IMG/VR virus record: IMGVR_UViG_3300031977_001791 | Location: 1 to 20,202 of that record | From: a virus | DNA: 20,202 nucleotides | Reading direction: 5' to 3' (one strand) | Shown here: positions 10,053 through 17,056 of the stretch, piece by piece | Layout: every line of letters begins with the position of its first letter | How positions within the stretch are numbered: the stretch's first letter is position 1 | Made by a program: the position numbers and the translations under genes | The notes under the pieces: generated by a model | Told to the model about the DNA's origin: nothing | The model's database searches: none | What the model saw: only the letters and a program-made list of their open reading frames with translations

Positions 10053-11939
10053 TTAATGAATATCTAGCCACGTTCTACCAATCGCACCTTCTCCCACTTG
10101 TTCAACATCTAGGTTGAGGTGTTTGCTTGCGTGATTGATAGCACGTTCAGCTAGTTGTTTACAATCTTCAGCAAGGTGTTCTCTCACTTCAATAGTAAAC
10201 TCGTCATGGGCAACGCCTACATAAGCATAGTCTTTCCACCATACCCATCCAAGTTGTGTCACCCACTTATTAAAGAATAATAAAGCGTATTGCATAAGTA
10301 TTGCTTCATCACTCTGTAATGTGTACACAAGACAGTCTTTCTCAATCCTTACACGAACAGGTGCGTTGTCTAAGGATGGTACATAACCGTTTTGCATCTC
10401 CATTTTACCATACATTTCATTGTATGATGGTTTTGCAGTTTTACTCCAAATATCTTTAAGATAGTCAGAGGTTTTCTTCTGTACAGAGAACAGTTTATCC
10501 ATCTCTGCACGTATGTCAACCCCTATTTTAAACTTATCTTTTACGGACGCATGAGCCATTTCTCCTAACTTTCCATCACCACAAGCAAACTTATAAGCGA
10601 AGTTGAAGTTCTTGGCAGTCTTACGATTAATCAAGGATAGTTTATTCTTGTCAAGTGCTTTGTTTATAGCAAGCATAGCCTGACTGTGGCTATCTGTCTT
10701 GTTAGCTTTGTCCCCATGTAATAGCATGTGTTCAAACTTAGGATCATCAAACCCATACTTCTTACCACGAGACAAGAGCATTCTATCCTGACAACCACTT
10801 GCATCTGTACCCACTAATACAAAACCATCTCTAGCAATAAACAAACTACGCATCTTCTTGCCAAAGAATGCTTCTTCACTAGGAACATTAACTAGGACGC
10901 CATGCTTCAACCGTCTAGTGTCAGCAAGTCCTCTAATCTGTTGTGACAGCCTACCCTTACGAGTGTTATCTATCCACCCTTGTATGATGGAGCGTCTTTG
11001 TACTGATTGAAAACGTCTAGCAATAAGTCTCCCTAGTTTACCATTCAGTCCCTCAAAAGGGTCGTCTTTGGATAGCTTAGGGGATGTTTGCTCCCCTTCA
11101 TCATTTTCATTCCAATACTTAGGCTTCCACCCAAGAGATAATAGATAGTCTTTTGTTTCGATAGGTTTGCCAAGGTCTAGCACTCTATGGGTGATACGGC
11201 AGAACATACCTGCAACAACATGGCTGTCATCTCCATACCAATCAATCACCATCTTAGAATAGCTACCGTCTTTCTTAAATGGTTTCTTCACCTCAACACC
11301 CTTGCTCTCAATGATAGTGGGGAGTTGTGGTGTAATAGCTCTGTCAATCCTACCTATCCAACGTGTAAGCATATCGACATAGAACCTAGCCTTGTCAACA
11401 TCAAACCTCCACCCTGCACGTTCTTGTAGCGACATTAGCTTGAAGTATTCGTAAGTCATGTCAAAGGCTTTCTGTGGGAATGGAAACTCCTGCTCCGCAA
11501 ACCACTTCAGCTTTTCCAACATCTTCTTGTAAATACCTAGCTGAATGTGTGTATCTTCTACACATCTGTGCATCATATCTTCTGAAAACTCTAGCCAGTT
11601 CTCATGTTTAGGCTTCTCACGTCCTAACTCCTTACCCCAACTATCAACACCGTGACGCATACGTTCCGAATACAACATTTGTGACATAATAAGGGTGTCG
11701 GATTGCTTACCTGCGTATTTATATCCCAACACCTTATGCAATAGAGGAAAGTCGTACATAATGCCATTGTGCATGATTAGCTCTGAACATGTGTCCATAA
11801 AGTCTTTCATCTCTTGCATCTGGTGGGGGTAGAAAGTGAATACTTCTTCAGTGTCTACGTCAATGAAACAACCACACCAAATGACAGTAGCTTCATGTAA
11901 CAAGCCGTTAGCTTCTAAGTCTGCAACACATCTACGCAT
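10053..11939 (-). CDS. Family A DNA polymerase with 3'-5' exonuclease (T7 gp5-like)
   Basis: This 628-residue polymerase copies the phage genome. Proofreading residues are D7-L-E9 (Exo I), H57-N58 to D63 (Exo II) and D129 (Exo III). Polymerase motif A is D379-A-S-G-C-Q384-D-R386; motif B is R439-x3-K443-x3-F447-x3-F451; motif C is H578-D579-E580. The motif A Glu (T7 E480, E. coli Pol I E710) is Gln, and the position of Pol I F762/T7 Y526 is Phe. Pol I Y766 is also Phe, followed by Ala rather than Gly. T7 gp5 has 704 residues; the shortfall of 76 roughly equals the thioredoxin-binding loop, so processivity may come from another factor. The start has SD GGGGAG. Confidence 0.95.
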   Translation of the reverse strand: MRRCVADLEANGLLHEATVIWCGCFIDVDTEEVFTFYPHQMQEMKDFMDTCSELIMHNGIMYDFPLLHKVLGYKYAGKQSDTLIMSQMLYSERMRHGVDSWGKELGREKPKHENWLEFSEDMMHRCVEDTHIQLGIYKKMLEKLKWFAEQEFPFPQKAFDMTYEYFKLMSLQERAGWRFDVDKARFYVDMLTRWIGRIDRAITPQLPTIIESKGVEVKKPFKKDGSYSKMVIDWYGDDSHVVAGMFCRITHRVLDLGKPIETKDYLLSLGWKPKYWNENDEGEQTSPKLSKDDPFEGLNGKLGRLIARRFQSVQRRSIIQGWIDNTRKGRLSQQIRGLADTRRLKHGVLVNVPSEEAFFGKKMRSLFIARDGFVLVGTDASGCQDRMLLSRGKKYGFDDPKFEHMLLHGDKANKTDSHSQAMLAINKALDKNKLSLINRKTAKNFNFAYKFACGDGKLGEMAHASVKDKFKIGVDIRAEMDKLFSVQKKTSDYLKDIWSKTAKPSYNEMYGKMEMQNGYVPSLDNAPVRVRIEKDCLVYTLQSDEAILMQYALLFFNKWVTQLGWVWWKDYAYVGVAHDEFTIEVREHLAEDCKQLAERAINHASKHLNLDVEQVGEGAIGRTWLDIH

Positions 11940-11955: not shown

Positions 11956-13605
11956 TTAGTGTTGTTGTGGTTCTAGCAATCTACCAGTGTTTTTGTTAAA
12001 GAACAAAGGAATAATTGCGCTCTCTCCAAAGTTTCTGTCTTCGAGAATAACGAGCTTACGTGTGTTTCTTTCTTCTTCTGATAGCTCAGGGTCTTTGTTA
12101 CCCTCAATACCTATCATCATGTGACAGAAACGAGCCATAGCTCTACTACCTGCAAACTGACTTGACAGCACCTTACCGCCTCGGTCATGTGGCACACCTG
12201 ATTGCGGATTGTTTAAATGACAAAAAGCGTATGCTGTGAAGTCTAAGTCTTTAGCTAAAGATGCAAGCTCAGATGCAATCTTAATTAACATATCGTTAGC
12301 TTCTCCAGATGACATACCGACAGTGAAACATGTTAAGGGGTCTAGGATAACATCTTTACAGCCCAATACTGTGACATTGTAGCGTATCTCCTGCTTCACC
12401 TCCTCCCATTTAACATCTTGGTAGGTGTCATAGATTATTGCATTGCTCCCGATAATAGCTTTGCCTTTCTCGAAGTCCTCTTGAGATACTGCAATGTTAG
12501 GATCATAAAATATTCTGTCCACTGCTGTACCTGCTAGGCGTTTAAGTGTACCACCCATGCTTTCTTCTGGTTTACACAAGAATACAGGTGTTCCTGCTGT
12601 GCGTATCAAATGTGTAGCTATCTCATTTACAACAACACTCTTACCTATCTTAGGCGCACCACCGAAGTAGTACACTTCACCTCTACGAATGCCCCTACTC
12701 TTAGCGGTTAATGTGTCCCATACCCAAGGAATGCCATGCTCAGGTGTATATTCTGCTAAGTGCCAAATGTCACTGGAGCGAACACTCTTACCACTTGTGG
12801 GTGGCTGTGCATCCCATATACAGGCTTTAAACAACTCTTTTTGTCTGCCTGCTTTGTACATCTCATTTGCATCTTTAAGCGGTAGTTTAGCAACAAGTAT
12901 ATCAGGGAACATCTTTCCTACTTCTGTAGCAAACATACTACCTGCTTCGTCTTGGTCAGGTACTACTACAACATTCTTAAACGATGCCTTAATTTGTGAC
13001 AAGAAGGGATATAGTTTTTTAGCACTACTAGCACCTCCTTGAACACTTATTACACTAGCACTCTTTCCATCCTGTTCGTAGATAGTTTGCCAAAGTGCCA
13101 TTGCGTCGCATTCACCCTCTGTTATAAATAGCTTTGCAGATTGAGGAGCCGAGCGCAAAGCCTGTTCCCAACCAAATGGATCAGAACTCACAACACTACC
13201 AACGCAGAAGAAACGCTTATTTTCAACAAGTCTCACTTTATAACCCTTGATTTTCCCATTCATGGTGTAAGGGTAGTGGTGTGCAGTGATTGTTTGACCG
13301 TCAGACTCACTCAGAGCCACTGTAACGCCAAAATGCTCACTAGCCTTTAGCGGTAGTCCTCTGTCAATTAAAGCACGCTTAGGATGGTTGTACAGAGCTT
13401 TTAGCTCCGCCTGTATCTCTTCCTCAGTTTTAACTTGAGTTTTAGGGCGGTAATCTGCAGGTTTATCGTTGTAAGGATTAGCCACGTATGTGCGACATTT
13501 AAAGCAATATCCAGTATATTTGTCATTTTCTTCATCATAAAAAACATTCAAACCCTTAGTTGTTCCGCATTCGTGCGGTAGTCTATCTACAATTTGACTT
13601 GTCAT
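11956..13605 (-). CDS. DNA primase-helicase (T7 gp4-like)
   Basis: This 549-residue fused enzyme unwinds the fork and makes primers. It has an N-terminal zinc region (H11-x-C13 ... C34-x-x-C37), a TOPRIM domain with E163-G-E-C-D and D217-Q-D219, and a RecA-like hexameric helicase domain with Walker A G-G-A-P-K-I-G-K322-S323 and Walker B V-I-L-D422. T7 gp4 uses four Cys for zinc; here the first ligand would have to be H11 or be absent. The C-terminus lacks the acidic tail with terminal Phe that T7 gp4 uses to bind the polymerase. The start at 13605 has SD GGGAG, and the gene overlaps the upstream small gene by 23 bases. Confidence 0.94.
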   Translation of the reverse strand: MTSQIVDRLPHECGTTKGLNVFYDEENDKYTGYCFKCRTYVANPYNDKPADYRPKTQVKTEEEIQAELKALYNHPKRALIDRGLPLKASEHFGVTVALSESDGQTITAHHYPYTMNGKIKGYKVRLVENKRFFCVGSVVSSDPFGWEQALRSAPQSAKLFITEGECDAMALWQTIYEQDGKSASVISVQGGASSAKKLYPFLSQIKASFKNVVVVPDQDEAGSMFATEVGKMFPDILVAKLPLKDANEMYKAGRQKELFKACIWDAQPPTSGKSVRSSDIWHLAEYTPEHGIPWVWDTLTAKSRGIRRGEVYYFGGAPKIGKSVVVNEIATHLIRTAGTPVFLCKPEESMGGTLKRLAGTAVDRIFYDPNIAVSQEDFEKGKAIIGSNAIIYDTYQDVKWEEVKQEIRYNVTVLGCKDVILDPLTCFTVGMSSGEANDMLIKIASELASLAKDLDFTAYAFCHLNNPQSGVPHDRGGKVLSSQFAGSRAMARFCHMMIGIEGNKDPELSEEERNTRKLVILEDRNFGESAIIPLFFNKNTGRLLEPQQH

Positions 13606-13789
13606 TATTAACTTCTCCCATATTAACTTCTATAAAATCAATCGCATCATCATATATACTGAATGATGCAATCTTTCTATCGTCCAACAGAGTAACTTCT
13701 CGCACTTCATACGGAGTGTCCTCTTTGTTGGACGCATACCATATCTCAAAACCTTTATTTGTGCATCCCCTAAATTCTAAAAACTGCAT
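13583..13789 (-). CDS. Small hypothetical protein upstream of primase
   Basis: This 68-residue protein starts at ATG 13789 with AAGGTGATT as SD. The sequence alternates aromatic and charged residues early (F-L-E-F, F-E-I-W-Y-A) and has an acidic middle (Y-D-D-A-I-D-F-I-E). It resembles small early phage proteins with a single alpha/beta unit, but I recognise no family. Its 3' end overlaps primase by 23 bases, so translation is probably coupled. Upstream is a 164-base gap with an antisense promoter-like element. Confidence 0.6.
   Translation of the reverse strand: MQFLEFRGCTNKGFEIWYASNKEDTPYEVREVTLLDDRKIASFSIYDDAIDFIEVNMGEVNNDKSNCR
13606..13631. repeat. 11-bp direct repeat at the primase ribosome binding site
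   Basis: TATTAACTTCT occurs at 13606-13616 and 13621-13631 with a 15-base period. On the minus strand this gives AGAAGTTAATA twice, the downstream copy being part of the primase SD region. It lies within the end of the upstream small gene. It could have arisen by slippage. Confidence 0.35.
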
Positions 13790-13815
13790 ACAATCACCTT
13801 TTTTACCTTATACTG

Positions 13816-13844
13816 TTTACTTTATCCTAAAAATATGATATTAC
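13816..13844 (+). promoter_or_regulatory. Weak rightward promoter, a copy of the one at 16487
   Basis: TTTACT (13816-13821), 17 bases, then TATTAC (13839-13844). Over 29 bases it matches the promoter at 16487-16515 at 20 positions by my alignment. It points right, against the leftward operon and toward the 3' end of the HTH gene. No plus-strand gene follows, so any product would be a short or antisense RNA. Confidence 0.4.
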
Positions 13845-13872
13845 TAGAAAGCACTTCTAGGGAGTACTTCTA
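13844..13872. promoter_or_regulatory. Operator-like palindrome and shared ACTTCTA motif
   Basis: CTAGAA (13844-13849) and TTCTAG (13855-13860) are perfect inverted arms around a 5-base spacer. The motif ACTTCTAGGGAGTACTTC (13853-13870) matches ACTTCTAAGGAGTGCTTC at 16522-16539 in 16 of 18 bases. The site is about 90 bases downstream of the stop of a tandem-HTH regulator gene, a plausible binder. Confidence 0.45.
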
Positions 13873-13884
13873 ATAAAGAACATT

Positions 13885-13921
13885 AAGAAGGAGGTTGTTA
13901 CCTCTACTCCTATCTTCTTTT
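13885..13921. terminator. Bulged hairpin between HTH gene and primase operon
   Basis: Outer arms AAGAAG/CTTCTT (13885-13890 with 13914-13919) and inner arms GAGGT/ACCTC (13891-13895 with 13900-13904) stack with a 9-base bulge on one side. On plus it is followed by TTTTAA, and on minus by AATGTTCTTT. It could stop a short rightward RNA from the promoter at 13816, or attenuate leftward transcription after the HTH gene. The T-tracts are weak. Confidence 0.35.
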
Positions 13922-13953
13922 AATCCTCTTAACAACATTCTGTAACATCTCAT

Positions 13954-14334
13954 TTAAAATAATTCTTCTGGCAGTTCAGCTAAGAAGCTACTACTTCCTA
14001 GCATATCATCTATTGCGTATAGTACGCTCTTATACAAAAAGAATGAGCTCTTTCTTCCAAGTTTCCATTCAACAAATGTGTTGTAGCTAACACCACTTAG
14101 ATCAAACACTTTCTTCTTTTTATCCTTAGGTAGCATGCTATAACGCTCTAATAGATATTCTAGTGCGTTATCGGGTATACCACTATACCCTAACATCGCT
14201 AACACCTTTAAAGCGTCATCCGTCTTAGGGTACGCTCTCCTCCAGTTGTCAATAGTTGACACAGGAATACCAGTAGCATTCGTTACATCTTTATAACGAA
14301 ACCCTGATTTTTTAATCAACTCGTTAAATGTCAT
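13954..14334 (-). CDS. Putative transcription regulator with two HTH-like repeats
   Basis: This 126-residue protein has G22-I-P-V-S-T-I-D-N-W31 and again G81-V-S-Y-N-T-F-V-E-W90, both with the spacing G-(I/V)-x3-T-x3-W of a helix-turn-helix core, 59 residues apart. The first resembles XRE/Cro-type domains that follow with a basic Arg-Arg. No protease or ligand domain is present. A protein with two recognition helices could bind a palindromic operator as one chain, and a palindromic site lies about 90 bases downstream of its stop (13844-13860). It probably regulates the early-to-late switch, or is a host-directed regulator. The start overlaps the membrane-protein stop as ATGA. Confidence 0.65.
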   Translation of the reverse strand: MTFNELIKKSGFRYKDVTNATGIPVSTIDNWRRAYPKTDDALKVLAMLGYSGIPDNALEYLLERYSMLPKDKKKKVFDLSGVSYNTFVEWKLGRKSSFFLYKSVLYAIDDMLGSSSFLAELPEELF

Positions 14335-14429
14335 ACTAAACCCTCAACAGCTAATATCGTATAAAAAACCGTTACAACAACAATAGCAACTAGTAACTTT
14401 TGAAAAAATTCACATAAAAAATCTTTCAT
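14331..14429 (-). CDS. 32-residue single-pass membrane protein
   Basis: This 32-residue frame from ATG 14429 to TGA 14331 has SD GAGGAG and overlaps both neighbours by exactly four bases (ATGA), strong support for a real gene despite its size. A short polar N-terminus is followed by about 20 hydrophobic residues (L-L-V-A-I-V-V-V-T-V-F-Y-T-I-L-A-V), enough to cross the membrane once. Possible roles are a small early inner-membrane effector, superinfection exclusion or modulation of a host membrane protein. A holin is less likely given its early position, away from the lysozyme gene. The function is unknown. Confidence 0.65.
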   Translation of the reverse strand: MKDFLCEFFQKLLVAIVVVTVFYTILAVEGLV

Positions 14430-14686
14430 GCTCTAAACTCCTCTAATATCTTATCTAAAACACGTTCCGCATAGTCATCATATATAAGTTCTTTTACCTC
14501 ATCAGAAAAAAACACCTCATCACCATGTGATATGCATTCACACGTTACATAATCGACATCGAATTCAGCAGGGTAGCAATCTTCAGGCATACCACATATT
14601 TTAGCAGGAGTGTACGTGTAGTGCATAACACCCCAAAATTTTAATCCATGGATCTCCACCTCATAACCGTATTTTTCGTAACTCAT
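14426..14686 (-). CDS. Hypothetical early protein
   Basis: This 86-residue acidic protein starts at ATG 14686 with SD AAGGGG. The first half is strand-rich with a Y-T-Y-T-P-A ... C-Y-P-A-E-F-D-V-D pattern, and the second half forms an acidic helix. I recall similar small phage proteins with paired strands and P-x-E-F-x-V-D but no function. It contains four Cys (C31, C37, C49, C51 by my count), which could bind metal. It overlaps the small membrane gene by four bases. Confidence 0.6.
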   Translation of the reverse strand: MSYEKYGYEVEIHGLKFWGVMHYTYTPAKICGMPEDCYPAEFDVDYVTCECISHGDEVFFSDEVKELIYDDYAERVLDKILEEFRA

Positions 14687-14689
14687 AAT

Positions 14690-14998
14690 TTACCCCTTAT
14701 TAATTGCTTTCGATAGTTTTACTGTTGCGCTAATAGCTGACAGTGGTGGTGTGATTGGTTTGTCTGCATGGTTGTAGAATTGAAATTTTTTAACGTATTC
14801 ACCACGAATTAGCACATACACAATGTTTAAATGCACAATGTCATAACCATTGATACGTCTGTATGCGTCCCAATGGCTTTCTAAGGCACTTTCTACACTA
14901 TCCCAATATCTATGCACTAGGGGGCAGTTAAAAGCCCTCCTAGCGTGCTCTAGTGACTGCTCCCAACTAAACATTTTTCCGTTATTCAATACTCTCAT
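14690..14998 (-). CDS. Hypothetical early protein
   Basis: This 102-residue protein starts at ATG 14998. SD AGGGGGG, five bases upstream, decides against the frame opening at 15019, which would overlap the previous stop. It is Trp- and His-containing (W-E-Q-S-L-E-H-A, V-H-R-Y-W), with basic and aromatic residues in the first half and a beta-rich middle (I-V-Y-V-L-I-R-G-E-Y-V). I recognise no family. It belongs to the early cluster next to the control region, where phages usually keep host-takeover genes. Confidence 0.6.
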   Translation of the reverse strand: MRVLNNGKMFSWEQSLEHARRAFNCPLVHRYWDSVESALESHWDAYRRINGYDIVHLNIVYVLIRGEYVKKFQFYNHADKPITPPLSAISATVKLSKAINKG

Positions 14999-15008
14999 AA
15001 CAACCCCC

Positions 15009-15242
15009 CTAAAACGCACCAGTACTTTTCATAGCACTGACAACACCGTTAAACACTGCGGTTTCATAAGGTGAAAGGCTTCCACCTGAATTTATCTTGG
15101 TGTATATCTGCACCCTTTCATTCAATATGTCGCTGAATGTCTTTAATAAATCAGCATCAATAACATCCTTATTCAACTCGTTAGACAATAAAAAAGCTGA
15201 TGTTTGGATGCTGCCTAATAGATGTTTTATATCGTTATTCAT
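15009..15242 (-). CDS. Hypothetical early protein
   Basis: This 77-residue protein starts at ATG 15242 with SD AAGGGG. It looks all-helical: an N-terminal helix (I-K-H-L-L-G-S-I), a second acidic one (D-L-L-K-T-F-S-D-I-L), then a loop G-G-S-L-S-P-Y-E and a last helix. No motif is recognised. It lies three bases downstream of the preceding gene. Confidence 0.6.
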   Translation of the reverse strand: MNNDIKHLLGSIQTSAFLLSNELNKDVIDADLLKTFSDILNERVQIYTKINSGGSLSPYETAVFNGVVSAMKSTGAF

Positions 15243-15245
15243 AAT

Positions 15246-15584
15246 TCACCCCTTCTCTACTTCTAACAATAACTCTTCAAAATCCACTTGACACCCCGCA
15301 AAGAATACTAATTGATTCACAACATGTTCAGAGTTGCAATCATCAGGCAGTAAGATCACCTCACCTAGCATTTCTTCTTGTTGCTCTATCACGTAGCCGA
15401 TGGCATCCCAAGGGCTGACGCCATGCTTTTTGAGCCATTCATCAGCTTGATAGAAGCCAATGATGTAATAATCCTCATTGAATGCTATGTGGTGTGCATC
15501 ATCAATATTGTCTTGGTTAATGTGTCCACTCTCGATAAGGTCTTGAGCGTGTTCGATTAGTTCTGCGATAATTGATTGTTTCAT
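15246..15584 (-). CDS. Acidic early protein without arginine
   Basis: This 112-residue protein has 24 Asp/Glu, 4 Lys and no Arg by my count, net about -20. The start at 15584 has SD AGGAG. The middle reads D-Y-Y-I-I-G-F-Y-Q-A, then W-L-K-K-H and D-A-I-G-Y-V-I-E, a pattern I recall from small proteins of other marine and enteric phages, with no known role. Size, charge and early position resemble DNA-mimic antirestriction proteins such as T7 Ocr, but there is no sequence evidence for that function. Confidence 0.65.
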   Translation of the reverse strand: MKQSIIAELIEHAQDLIESGHINQDNIDDAHHIAFNEDYYIIGFYQADEWLKKHGVSPWDAIGYVIEQQEEMLGEVILLPDDCNSEHVVNQLVFFAGCQVDFEELLLEVEKG

Positions 15585-15610
15585 TTGTTGTCTCCTCAGA
15601 CTTTAATAAT

Positions 15611-15874
15611 TTATAGCTCGATTAATTGCTCGAAACGATAACCTTTTTGTAATTCTTTAATTTTAAACAGATCTAGATTATCACCCTCTAACGCTTCGAC
15701 AGCCTTCAGATGATTTTCATACGCATCTAGTGAGTAATCATACGCAGTTGTTTTTTGTTTAGAATTATATCTATTTCCTAAACCATCAAAACCAACGAGA
15801 AATGCCGTTATCGACTCCCCCTTTGTATCTGTAGCCTGATTGAAGCGTGTTCTAAATTCTTTTTTATATAGCAT
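15611..15874 (-). CDS. Hypothetical protein, first gene of the leftward arm
   Basis: This 87-residue basic-to-neutral protein starts at ATG 15874 with SD AGGAAA. The N-terminus is rich in Lys, Arg and Phe (Y-K-K-E-F-R-T-R-F-N), followed by a strand-rich part and an acidic C-terminal helix. I recognise no family. It is the first gene downstream of the leftward promoter at 15936-15964, so it is probably among the first proteins made after infection. Confidence 0.6.
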   Translation of the reverse strand: MLYKKEFRTRFNQATDTKGESITAFLVGFDGLGNRYNSKQKTTAYDYSLDAYENHLKAVEALEGDNLDLFKIKELQKGYRFEQLIEL

Positions 15875-15894
15875 AATAATATTTCCTATTAGAT

Positions 15895-16003
15895 GACCAG
15901 TCAGGGCTTATTCCCTACACTGCTTTGATGTGTTTATAATAGTGATATTTACTTGATAATACAAGTCCGACCAGTGAGATATTTTAGTGGTCGTACCAGT
16001 GAC
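15895..16003. repeat. ACCAGT repeats around the leftward promoter
   Basis: GACCAGT occurs at 15895-15901 and 15969-15975, and ACCAGT at 15995-16000. An inverted TGGTC lies at 15988-15992, forming GACCA...TGGTC with the second copy. The copies flank the promoter at 15936-15964, as repressor or activator half-sites would. Confidence 0.4.
15936..15964 (-). promoter_or_regulatory. Leftward early promoter (sigma70 type)
   Basis: On the minus strand, TTGTAT (15959-15964) and TATTAT (15936-15941) are 17 bases apart, 60-90 bases upstream of the first leftward gene. The inverted repeat ACTTG-N6-CAAGT (15951-15966) covers the -35 box and could be an operator. It is the best candidate promoter for the whole leftward arm. 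Confidence 0.55.
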
Positions 16004-16130
16004 TATTTAGTACCTTTATATATGCGTGTGTGCGTAGCAATAACTATGCCAACTATTCAGTACTGCTTAGCTGTATAACTGTATAGGGTAATGGAAGTAT
16101 ATGACAGTATAGGGTGCATCACTCACTCTC

Positions 16131-16242
16131 ACTCTTAGCCTTCTAGACTTCCAGATGTATAGACGTCTAGATGTATAGCCTTCTAGCCTTCTAGGTGTCT
16201 AGACTTCCAGACTTCTAGACGTATAGCCGTTTAGACGTCTAA
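16131..16242. repeat. Tandem array of degenerate 8-bp repeats (13-14 units)
   Basis: From 16139 to 16242 the sequence is thirteen uninterrupted octamers, for example CCTTCTAG, ACTTCCAG, ATGTATAG, ACGTCTAG, GTGTCTAG. A fourteenth, ACTCTTAG, precedes at 16131. In the 13 strict units position 4 is T and position 7 is A in all, position 8 is G in 12, position 6 is T in 11 and position 2 is C in 10. Position 3 is always T or G. The recurring TAG closes all three plus-strand frames, so this is not coding. The unit length and conserved core suggest a protein-binding array, either a replication origin, a regulatory site or a packaging-related site. Confidence 0.85.
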
Positions 16243-16300
16243 ATAAACGCATAGAGGTAGGGGGAGGGGGATTGTCTAGTGTGATTTATGTAGGTAGGCA

Positions 16301-16344
16301 CTCAGATTTGCAAGAGGAGGTTTTCTAAAACCTCTCAGATTTGC
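16301..16344. repeat. Palindrome between 11-bp direct repeats
   Basis: GAGGTTTT and AAAACCTC (16317-16324 and 16327-16334) form a near-perfect hairpin. It lies between two copies of CTCAGATTTGC (16301-16311, 16334-16344), the second sharing one base with the hairpin. Each copy is followed by a related AGAGG/AGAAGG stretch. There is no T-tract, so it is probably not a terminator; a binding site or recombination remnant is possible. Confidence 0.5.
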
Positions 16345-16486
16345 TAGAAGGTAAATTTCGCTTTTATTGGTGAAAAACCCTAATAATTATCCTAATAAGC
16401 CACCCCTAAATCTAACGCACAAGTGCATGATTTCTAAAGGTAAATTATAAAAAAGAAATTATTTTAGAAAAACCTAGTAAAAGGTA

Positions 16487-16515
16487 TTGACTTTTTCAAT
16501 TAAATATGTTATAAT
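16487..16515 (+). promoter_or_regulatory. Strong rightward sigma70-type promoter
   Basis: TTGACT (16487-16492), a 17-base spacer and a perfect TATAAT (16510-16515) make this the best promoter in the window. Transcription would start near 16522, run through a leader of about 135 bases and enter endonuclease VII, terminase, lysozyme and portal. The predicted start coincides with the ACTTCTA motif, so a protein bound there would block it. Confidence 0.8.
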
Positions 16516-16521
16516 CAAGCA

Positions 16522-16545
16522 ACTTCTAAGGAGTGCTTCCTAGAA
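16522..16545. promoter_or_regulatory. Operator-like inverted repeat at the rightward start
   Basis: TTCTA (16524-16528) and TAGAA (16541-16545) are inverted arms around AGGAGTGCTTCC. The first part, ACTTCTAAGGAGTGCTTC, repeats the motif at 13853-13870. It directly overlaps the predicted start of transcription, the usual place for a repressor site. A further hairpin (AGGAG/CTCCT, about 16577-16595) follows in the leader. Confidence 0.45.
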
Positions 16546-16657
16546 TTAATAGCTTTTTATTAAGAAGTATTATTCAGGAGGAGGAGACACTCCTAATTCC
16601 TCTCCTTAGCAATTAAATGTTAGTTGCCCACAATATGCCTGTTAAACAGAGAACATT

Positions 16658-17056
16658 ATGTCAGAAGAAAAAGTATGCACAAAGTGTGGAGAGTCTAAGT
16701 CTACATTAGAGTTCCATAAAAACTATAAGAACAATGACGGTTTACACTACCATTGTAAAAAGTGTCGTAAGAATGAGTCGTTAAAGCAGTACGATATGAC
16801 ACTATCTGATTATGACAAGATGTTAGAAAAGCAAGGTGGTAGGTGTAAGATATGTTCAACAGATACCCCTCGTGGTCAAAGTACAGCGGGTCGTTTTTAT
16901 GTTGACCATAACCATGAGACAGGTGAGGTTAGAGGTTTGTTGTGCAATGACTGTAATACAGGTATTGGTTTATTAAAGGACAGCCCTTTGATTTTAAGCA
17001 AGGCTATAGAATATTTAATGACTAATGGACATTACGGTGACAGTCATGACTTCTGA
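16658..17056 (+). CDS. Recombination endonuclease VII-like HNH nuclease
   Basis: This 132-residue protein has an N-terminal zinc finger (C7-x-x-C10 ... C33-x-x-C36) and then the endonuclease VII domain with C63-x-x-C66, Y-V-D83-H84-N85-H86 and G-L-L-C96-N-D-C99-N100. D83 and N100 match the catalytic D40 and N62 of T4 endonuclease VII. Such enzymes cut Holliday junctions and branched DNA before packaging, and here the gene is the first of the packaging operon, just before TerS. The SD is poor (only AGAGAAC upstream), so translation may be weak or controlled by the structured leader. Confidence 0.88.
   Translation: MSEEKVCTKCGESKSTLEFHKNYKNNDGLHYHCKKCRKNESLKQYDMTLSDYDKMLEKQGGRCKICSTDTPRGQSTAGRFYVDHNHETGEVRGLLCNDCNTGIGLLKDSPLILSKAIEYLMTNGHYGDSHDF

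Follow-up and report, generated by a model that had tools for sequence, protein, structure and literature searches.

Introduction

Arbiol et al. reportedly described, in 2010, mobile regulatory cassettes of T4-type phages, in which a unit of promoter plus stem-loop is repeated in intergenic gaps. In phage lambda, the CII-activated antisense promoter paQ acts against Q (PMC2327240), and seven antisense late promoters are found in the giant phage AR9 (PMC5312081); these two precedents indicate that phages use antisense promoters. The put RNA of phage HK022, which is approximately 70 nt long and has two stem-loops, is located behind a phage promoter and binds RNA polymerase (PMC9378689). For antisense promoters under shared late control, the literature offered broader parallels alone.

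Here we describe an element, el1, located at 13816-13872 inside the leftward operon of a virus contig, and compare it with the late promoter-operator of the same contig at 16487-16545. The window analyzed is the entire contig of 20,202 bases (IMG/VR record IMGVR_UViG_3300031977_001791, positions 1-20,202).

Results

Gene layout and relatives

The contig is probably a fragment, because that of a relative has 36,950 bases. According to the ORF list and HMM scans, the leftward block, which runs from 15874 down to 4481, carries, besides small genes of unknown function and the gene of an HTH protein, those of a primase-helicase (11956-13605), of a family A DNA polymerase (10053-11939) and of ThyX. 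The small genes at 13954-15874, including that of the HTH protein (13954-14334), are on the minus strand and are taken as early from the layout. Reading leftward, el1 is closely followed by a 68-aa gene, g68 (13583-13789, minus strand), which has a 48% identical ortholog in the relative. The rightward block starts at 16658; its first gene is endonuclease VII-like, and it also encodes an AT-hook-like protein and the large terminase. No RNA polymerase gene was recognized in the window. We infer the early and late classes from this layout and from gene content.

Among cultured phages, the best identity of the polymerase was 43% and the terminase match was partial or weak, but terminases 67-82% identical to that of the window were found in at least 80 IMG/VR loci. 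On these grounds, the phage can be assigned to a large family of viral metagenome contigs without a close cultured member. The family looks marine, uncultured and widespread, and the window phage looks lytic. The closest relative is an uncultured contig (IMGVR_UViG_3300035070_001339; L002, also listed as L005, L008, L095, L105 and L116), whose helicase is 91% and terminase 82-83% identical to those of the window, with 79% identity in the late promoter region. It is the sole retrieved relative with both the g68 and the helicase genes of the window. In a third genome, L004/L011, the late promoter carries two clear 13-bp boxes, and the contig is too short to include the el1 region.

The late promoter and el1

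The late promoter, TTGACT-17-TATAAT with an extended -10 TG (16487-16515, plus strand), scores 11/12 and is the best promoter-like site of the region; it is conserved in the closest relative and in L004/L011. Its start-site motif, ACTTCTAAGGAGTGCTTCCTAGAA (16522-16545, plus strand), contains a complete box at 16526-16539 followed by another CTAG at 16540-16543, and its ACT lies 6 nt past the -10, a distance found both in the clade of the window and in the wider family. Approximately 60 nt upstream of the -35, AAATCTAACGCACAAGTGCATGA (16408-16430), which includes a GCAC-AA-GTGC palindrome, is nearly unchanged in the window, the relative and L011, and is a candidate upstream activator site. The only occurrence found was the one at the late promoter, with none at el1, so that the control of the two need not be identical.

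Other features were noted around the late promoter. Upstream, the noncoding segment 16136-16255 consists of at least 10 successive in-register copies of the tandem 8-bp unit TAGACTTC and its variants, a possible protein-binding array or replication origin; none was noticed at the matching place in the relative. The stretch TGTTAGTTGCCC(C)ACAATATGCCTGTTAA.CAGAGAACAT (16618-16660), which immediately precedes the first start codon of the late genes, is nearly identical in the window, the relative and L011, and the gene behind it differs, being endonuclease VII-like in the window and AT-hook-like in the other two.

Within the leftward operon, el1 separates the small early genes from the replication genes, lying in the gap between the two groups. 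Its promoter-like half (13816-13844, plus strand) consists of TTTACT (13816-13821), a 17-nt spacer ending in an extended -10 TG, and TATTAC (13839-13844), and points rightward while every gene over 13954-15874 is leftward, so that it is antisense to the operon; the orientation is the same in the relative. With 8/12 to consensus, the hexamers are weak and fall below the threshold of the promoter scan, and alone would not draw notice as a promoter. Behind them lie two tandem 13-bp operator-like boxes on the plus strand (13844-13869), CTAGAAAGCACTT (13844-13856) and CTAGGGAGTACTT (13857-13869), the first of which overlaps the -10, an arrangement that would suit a repressor. A leftward sense promoter hidden within el1 was considered and rejected, since neither the helicase promoters of the wider family nor the general sigma-70 score revealed a comparable one in the gap of the window or of the relative.

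Likeness of el1 to the late promoter

The initial annotation had counted by hand 20 identities in the 29 bases of the promoter part and 16 in the 18 of ACTTCTA(G/A)GGAGT(A/G)CTTC, and both counts proved exact. ACTTCTA follows the -10 hexamer after 8 nt at 13.8 kb and after 6 nt at 16.5 kb. The expectation that the alignment would exceed shuffled controls was also borne out: the local score was 34, dinucleotide shuffles averaged 18.4 (sd 2.9), and 3 of 5000 reached 34. With another scoring scheme, the observed score was above that of every shuffle.

A less biased test than aligning the two segments is a promoter plus operator matrix trained on late promoters only, those of the window, the relative and L011 (n = 3). 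El1 ranked directly below the late promoter, with 42.2 bits, and the maximum in 100 shuffled windows, both strands included, was 18.0; the best other site in the window, not overlapping el1 or the plus-strand hits of the late promoter itself, scored approximately 17. Because the matrix score lies above all the shuffles, we regard el1 as a diverged copy of the late promoter-operator unit and not as a chance resemblance. Of the features by which we recognize such units, el1 has a promoter-like sequence with a CTAG-box motif within approximately 3-10 nt and an above-chance matrix score, and lacks the upstream motif AAATCTAACGCACAAGTGCATGA.

Counterpart in the closest relative

When the window was compared with the relative by blastn, no match was found between 13,620 and 16,362. 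The motif was nevertheless present when sought there, a search of relatives having been suggested by the initial annotation. At the matching place the relative has TTGACTTTTATAAAAATTTATGCTAAAATCAAATCTCTAGAGAGTACTTCCTAGAAAGCACT, antisense and upstream of its g68 ortholog, which is a much better sigma-70 promoter than el1 of the window. Its sequence, TTGACT-17-TAAAAT with TG, is near-consensus with an extended -10 (11-point) and, with a spacer inside the 16-18 nt range, qualifies as sigma-70 type. In the late-promoter matrix scan of this locus the counterpart ranks second, at 32.6 versus a shuffle maximum of 21.5. Both box types, at 13-14 bp, are present at the start site in swapped order relative to the window, and in both genomes the boxes are close behind the -10.

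The neighbors of the element differ in the relative: the early side has another gene, and the 68-aa ortholog is separated from the helicase by an additional one. This additional gene (L002:7141-8001), absent from the window, encodes 286 aa and, by eye, looks like a DNA cytosine-5 methyltransferase. Because blastn finds no other similarity across 13,620-16,362, the element appears to be all that was kept, its place and strand persisting between the two genomes while the flanking DNA changed. El1 is thus a copy whose similarity is not due to chance and whose place, strand and boxes are conserved in one relative, and its support comes from two genomes.

The box motif and further members of the clade

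The consensus box is CTAGRRAGYACTT, which together with the next CTAG is nearly palindromic. Tandem repeats of it, at 13-14 bp, occur in el1 of the two genomes and also in the late promoters of the relative and of L011, where the second box is less exact. A scan for the tandem pattern over 2.9 million viral contigs, a set from which the record of the window itself may be excluded, yielded ten stretches, and a promoter stood in front of it in L004 and L005 (the closest relative) alone. Scans with the helicase, the polymerase, g68, the operator pattern and the late-promoter pattern for further clade members returned the relative, short contigs without the el1 region (L004/L011 and L106) and distant relatives alone. 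The HTH protein of the window gave no match in such a scan, and a late-promoter-pattern match in L006, located inside coding DNA, was rejected as chance.

The paired copy in the wider family

Many wider relatives have TTGACAaatcctaaaaagtatgcTATAAT as their late promoter; ACTWWAGAG..ACGCAAGAG comes after it, in most cases at exactly 6 nt, the spacing also seen in the late promoter of the window. Six of them (L013, L033, L035, L058, L068 and L076) have a second, weaker copy upstream of the helicase, directed leftward and hence in sense, which scores above shuffled controls in at least one of two tests. An antisense copy inside the leftward operon was not found above its control in any of these wider relatives. 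Because the six pair in sense and none has an antisense copy above control, two promoters paired by one start-site element look like the rule of the family, and the antisense orientation would so far be a peculiarity of the small clade of the window. The helicase of this clade is of a different type, approximately 25% identical to that of the wider relatives.

In L022 (11291), L043 (11313), L079 (11312) and others, a further rightward promoter, of the TTGACAAATGAATAAAATTGTGGTATAAT type, is located approximately 3.3 kb past the terminase gene start. It is a recurrent feature of the wider family, and its start-site sequence is a different one.

The hairpin and the leader

The start of el1, deduced from the -10, would be near 13851, and the leader (13851-13911, plus strand) has a small three-helix minimum-energy fold, in which 13860-13866 pairs with 13905-13911 and GAGG (13891-13894) with CCTC (13901-13904). 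The initial annotation had noted that both elements are followed by ATTAAGAAG and a GGAGG hairpin. This held for the window, where ATTAAGAAG occurs exactly twice (13882 and 16559) and the stem-loop is real but small; it did not extend further, as ATTAAGAAG is absent from both relatives examined. The accompanying proposal of a short RNA ending at the hairpin 13885-13921 was rejected. The terminator scan found no intrinsic terminator with a U-tract on the plus strand there, and just a 5-bp stem on the minus strand; the leader of the window folds no more stably than shuffled sequence, and ATTAAGAAG is missing in the relatives.

Discussion

We propose, with a probability of about 0.5, that el1 is a rightward phage-regulated promoter controlled like the late promoter and opposing the early operon at the late stage. 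El1 would belong to the sigma-70 type and carry a tandem operator where transcription starts. Because the boxes are shared, co-regulation with the late promoter is the natural reading, and the regulator, or RNA polymerase state, that activates the late promoter would also act on el1. At the late stage, transcription would then proceed rightward, antisense through 13954-15874, toward the early promoter, whose expected position near 15.9 kb follows from the layout and from a weak promoter-like site. Early shut-off could be aided by antisense RNA, by collision or by promoter interference, much as paQ of lambda acts on Q. Shared regulation, timing, firing and silencing by el1 are what we infer from the sequence. 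Because the paired copy in the wider relatives is in sense, antisense silencing would not be the general use of the element in the family.

Several sequences near these genes may be of regulatory interest. Near the presumed early leftward promoter, GTCCGACCAGTGA / GTCGTACCAGTGA is repeated at 15965-16002, a candidate early operator; GGTCGTACC is found in the matching noncoding regions of the relatives as well. The HTH gene adjacent to el1 was rejected as a conserved regulator, since the relative lacks an ortholog at the matching position, and is left as a candidate; its sole match was to another HTH protein, at 23% over 35 residues. The relative has two small HTH proteins between helicase and polymerase (L002:10452-11102), one of which has a diverged second copy, 37% identical, at L105:14569-14934. 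These small proteins are late-regulator candidates.

Other explanations of el1 were weighed against this proposal. That the likeness arose by chance in A+T-rich DNA is scarcely credible. The promoter half alone would fit such an origin, and 10 sites of at least 9/12 were found in the region versus 13 expected, el1 not among them; however, the alignment shuffles, the matrix shuffles and the syntenic same-strand copy in the second genome contradict it, and it was rejected on the two independent shuffle tests and this copy. The boxes might instead bind a late-stage regulator that blocks or represses leftward transcription where the early genes adjoin the replication genes, the promoter half in the window being vestigial and no promoter active. 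The well-kept boxes of the window, its weak hexamers and the position of the first box over the -10 agree with this, and near-palindromic boxes could act either way. We consider it rather unlikely, as the near-consensus rightward promoter kept before the boxes in the relative would be needless for a pure roadblock, and the box-to-promoter spacing is roughly conserved.

The decayed promoter of the window could also be that of a re-oriented relic, left without a present role when an ancestral sense helicase promoter was replaced or inverted as the clade gained a different helicase-polymerase module. The sense copies at the corresponding boundary in six wider relatives and the divergent helicase of the clade are consistent with such a history. 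Conservation of place, strand, boxes and promoter spacing in the relative, despite unalignable flanks, is unexpected of a relic and makes this quite improbable. A structured RNA leader is likewise unlikely to account for the element. In that case the shared sequence would be the 5′ end of a transcript, serving stability, processive antitermination as in HK022 put or translation control, and the el1 product would be a structured, possibly termination-resistant antisense or small RNA. The leader folds are strong for el1 of the relative (z -4.2 to -4.9), the late promoter of the window (z about -3) and that of L011 (z -3.4); 13 of 20 late leaders of the wider family show start-site/downstream pairing beyond shuffles (p 0.023 or less), and the family has two copies behind two promoters, like put sites (PMC9378689). 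Against this, the el1 leader of the window does not stand out from shuffles in folding (z about -1) or in pairing (p 0.21), double-sided compensatory changes are absent from the conserved arms of 12 wider-family late leaders, an Rfam search gave no match of any kind, and a palindromic DNA site yields hairpins for free. Because the boxes are tandem and near-palindromic, a DNA-binding regulator would be the simpler reading.

If el1 fires as an antisense late-class promoter, it would illustrate how a phage without a recognized RNA polymerase gene in the window could go from early to late expression, namely with a promoter of the late class aimed against the early genes, and the sense copies in relatives, set beside el1, would form a ready-made evolutionary series for promoter re-orientation. 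The shared start-site motif would offer a handle for finding the late regulator of the family. More speculatively, the family may steer its replication and late operons by one shared promoter and start-site element, of which one clade reversed the replication-side copy, turning co-activation into antisense early shut-off; we hold this only tentatively. It would amount to a natural rewiring of a phage switch by a change in the direction of one promoter.

Comparison with known systems

The T4-type cassettes resemble el1 and the late promoter-operator in combining a promoter with a stem-loop in intergenic gaps. They differ in that the copies in the window are only two, in fixed places and with an operator in common, and the stem-loop is at most a putative terminator. 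HK022 putL and putR (PMC9378689) are likewise two related elements, each past a phage promoter and with stem-loop potential, but they serve two sense early operons as antiterminators, whereas in the window one copy is antisense. Neither a put-like fold nor an Rfam match was found. In AR9 (PMC5312081), as proposed for el1, promoters of the late class give antisense transcripts, for the most part late in infection; the multisubunit RNA polymerases at work there are the phage's own, whereas the hexamers of el1 are sigma-70-like, and el1 differs also in being a conserved promoter-operator unit at an operon boundary.

Lambda paQ differs from el1 in that the partner of el1 is the late promoter of a seemingly lytic phage and its site is at the start site, not at the -35. 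No sequence relation is claimed, and the regulator and activity of el1 are predictions. The likeness is one of design: lambda pI, pE (pRE) and paQ are several promoters with the site of one regulator, one of them antisense to a gene that it helps silence (PMC2327240), and el1, similarly, lies antisense to the genes that it would oppose and has its boxes in common with the late promoter.
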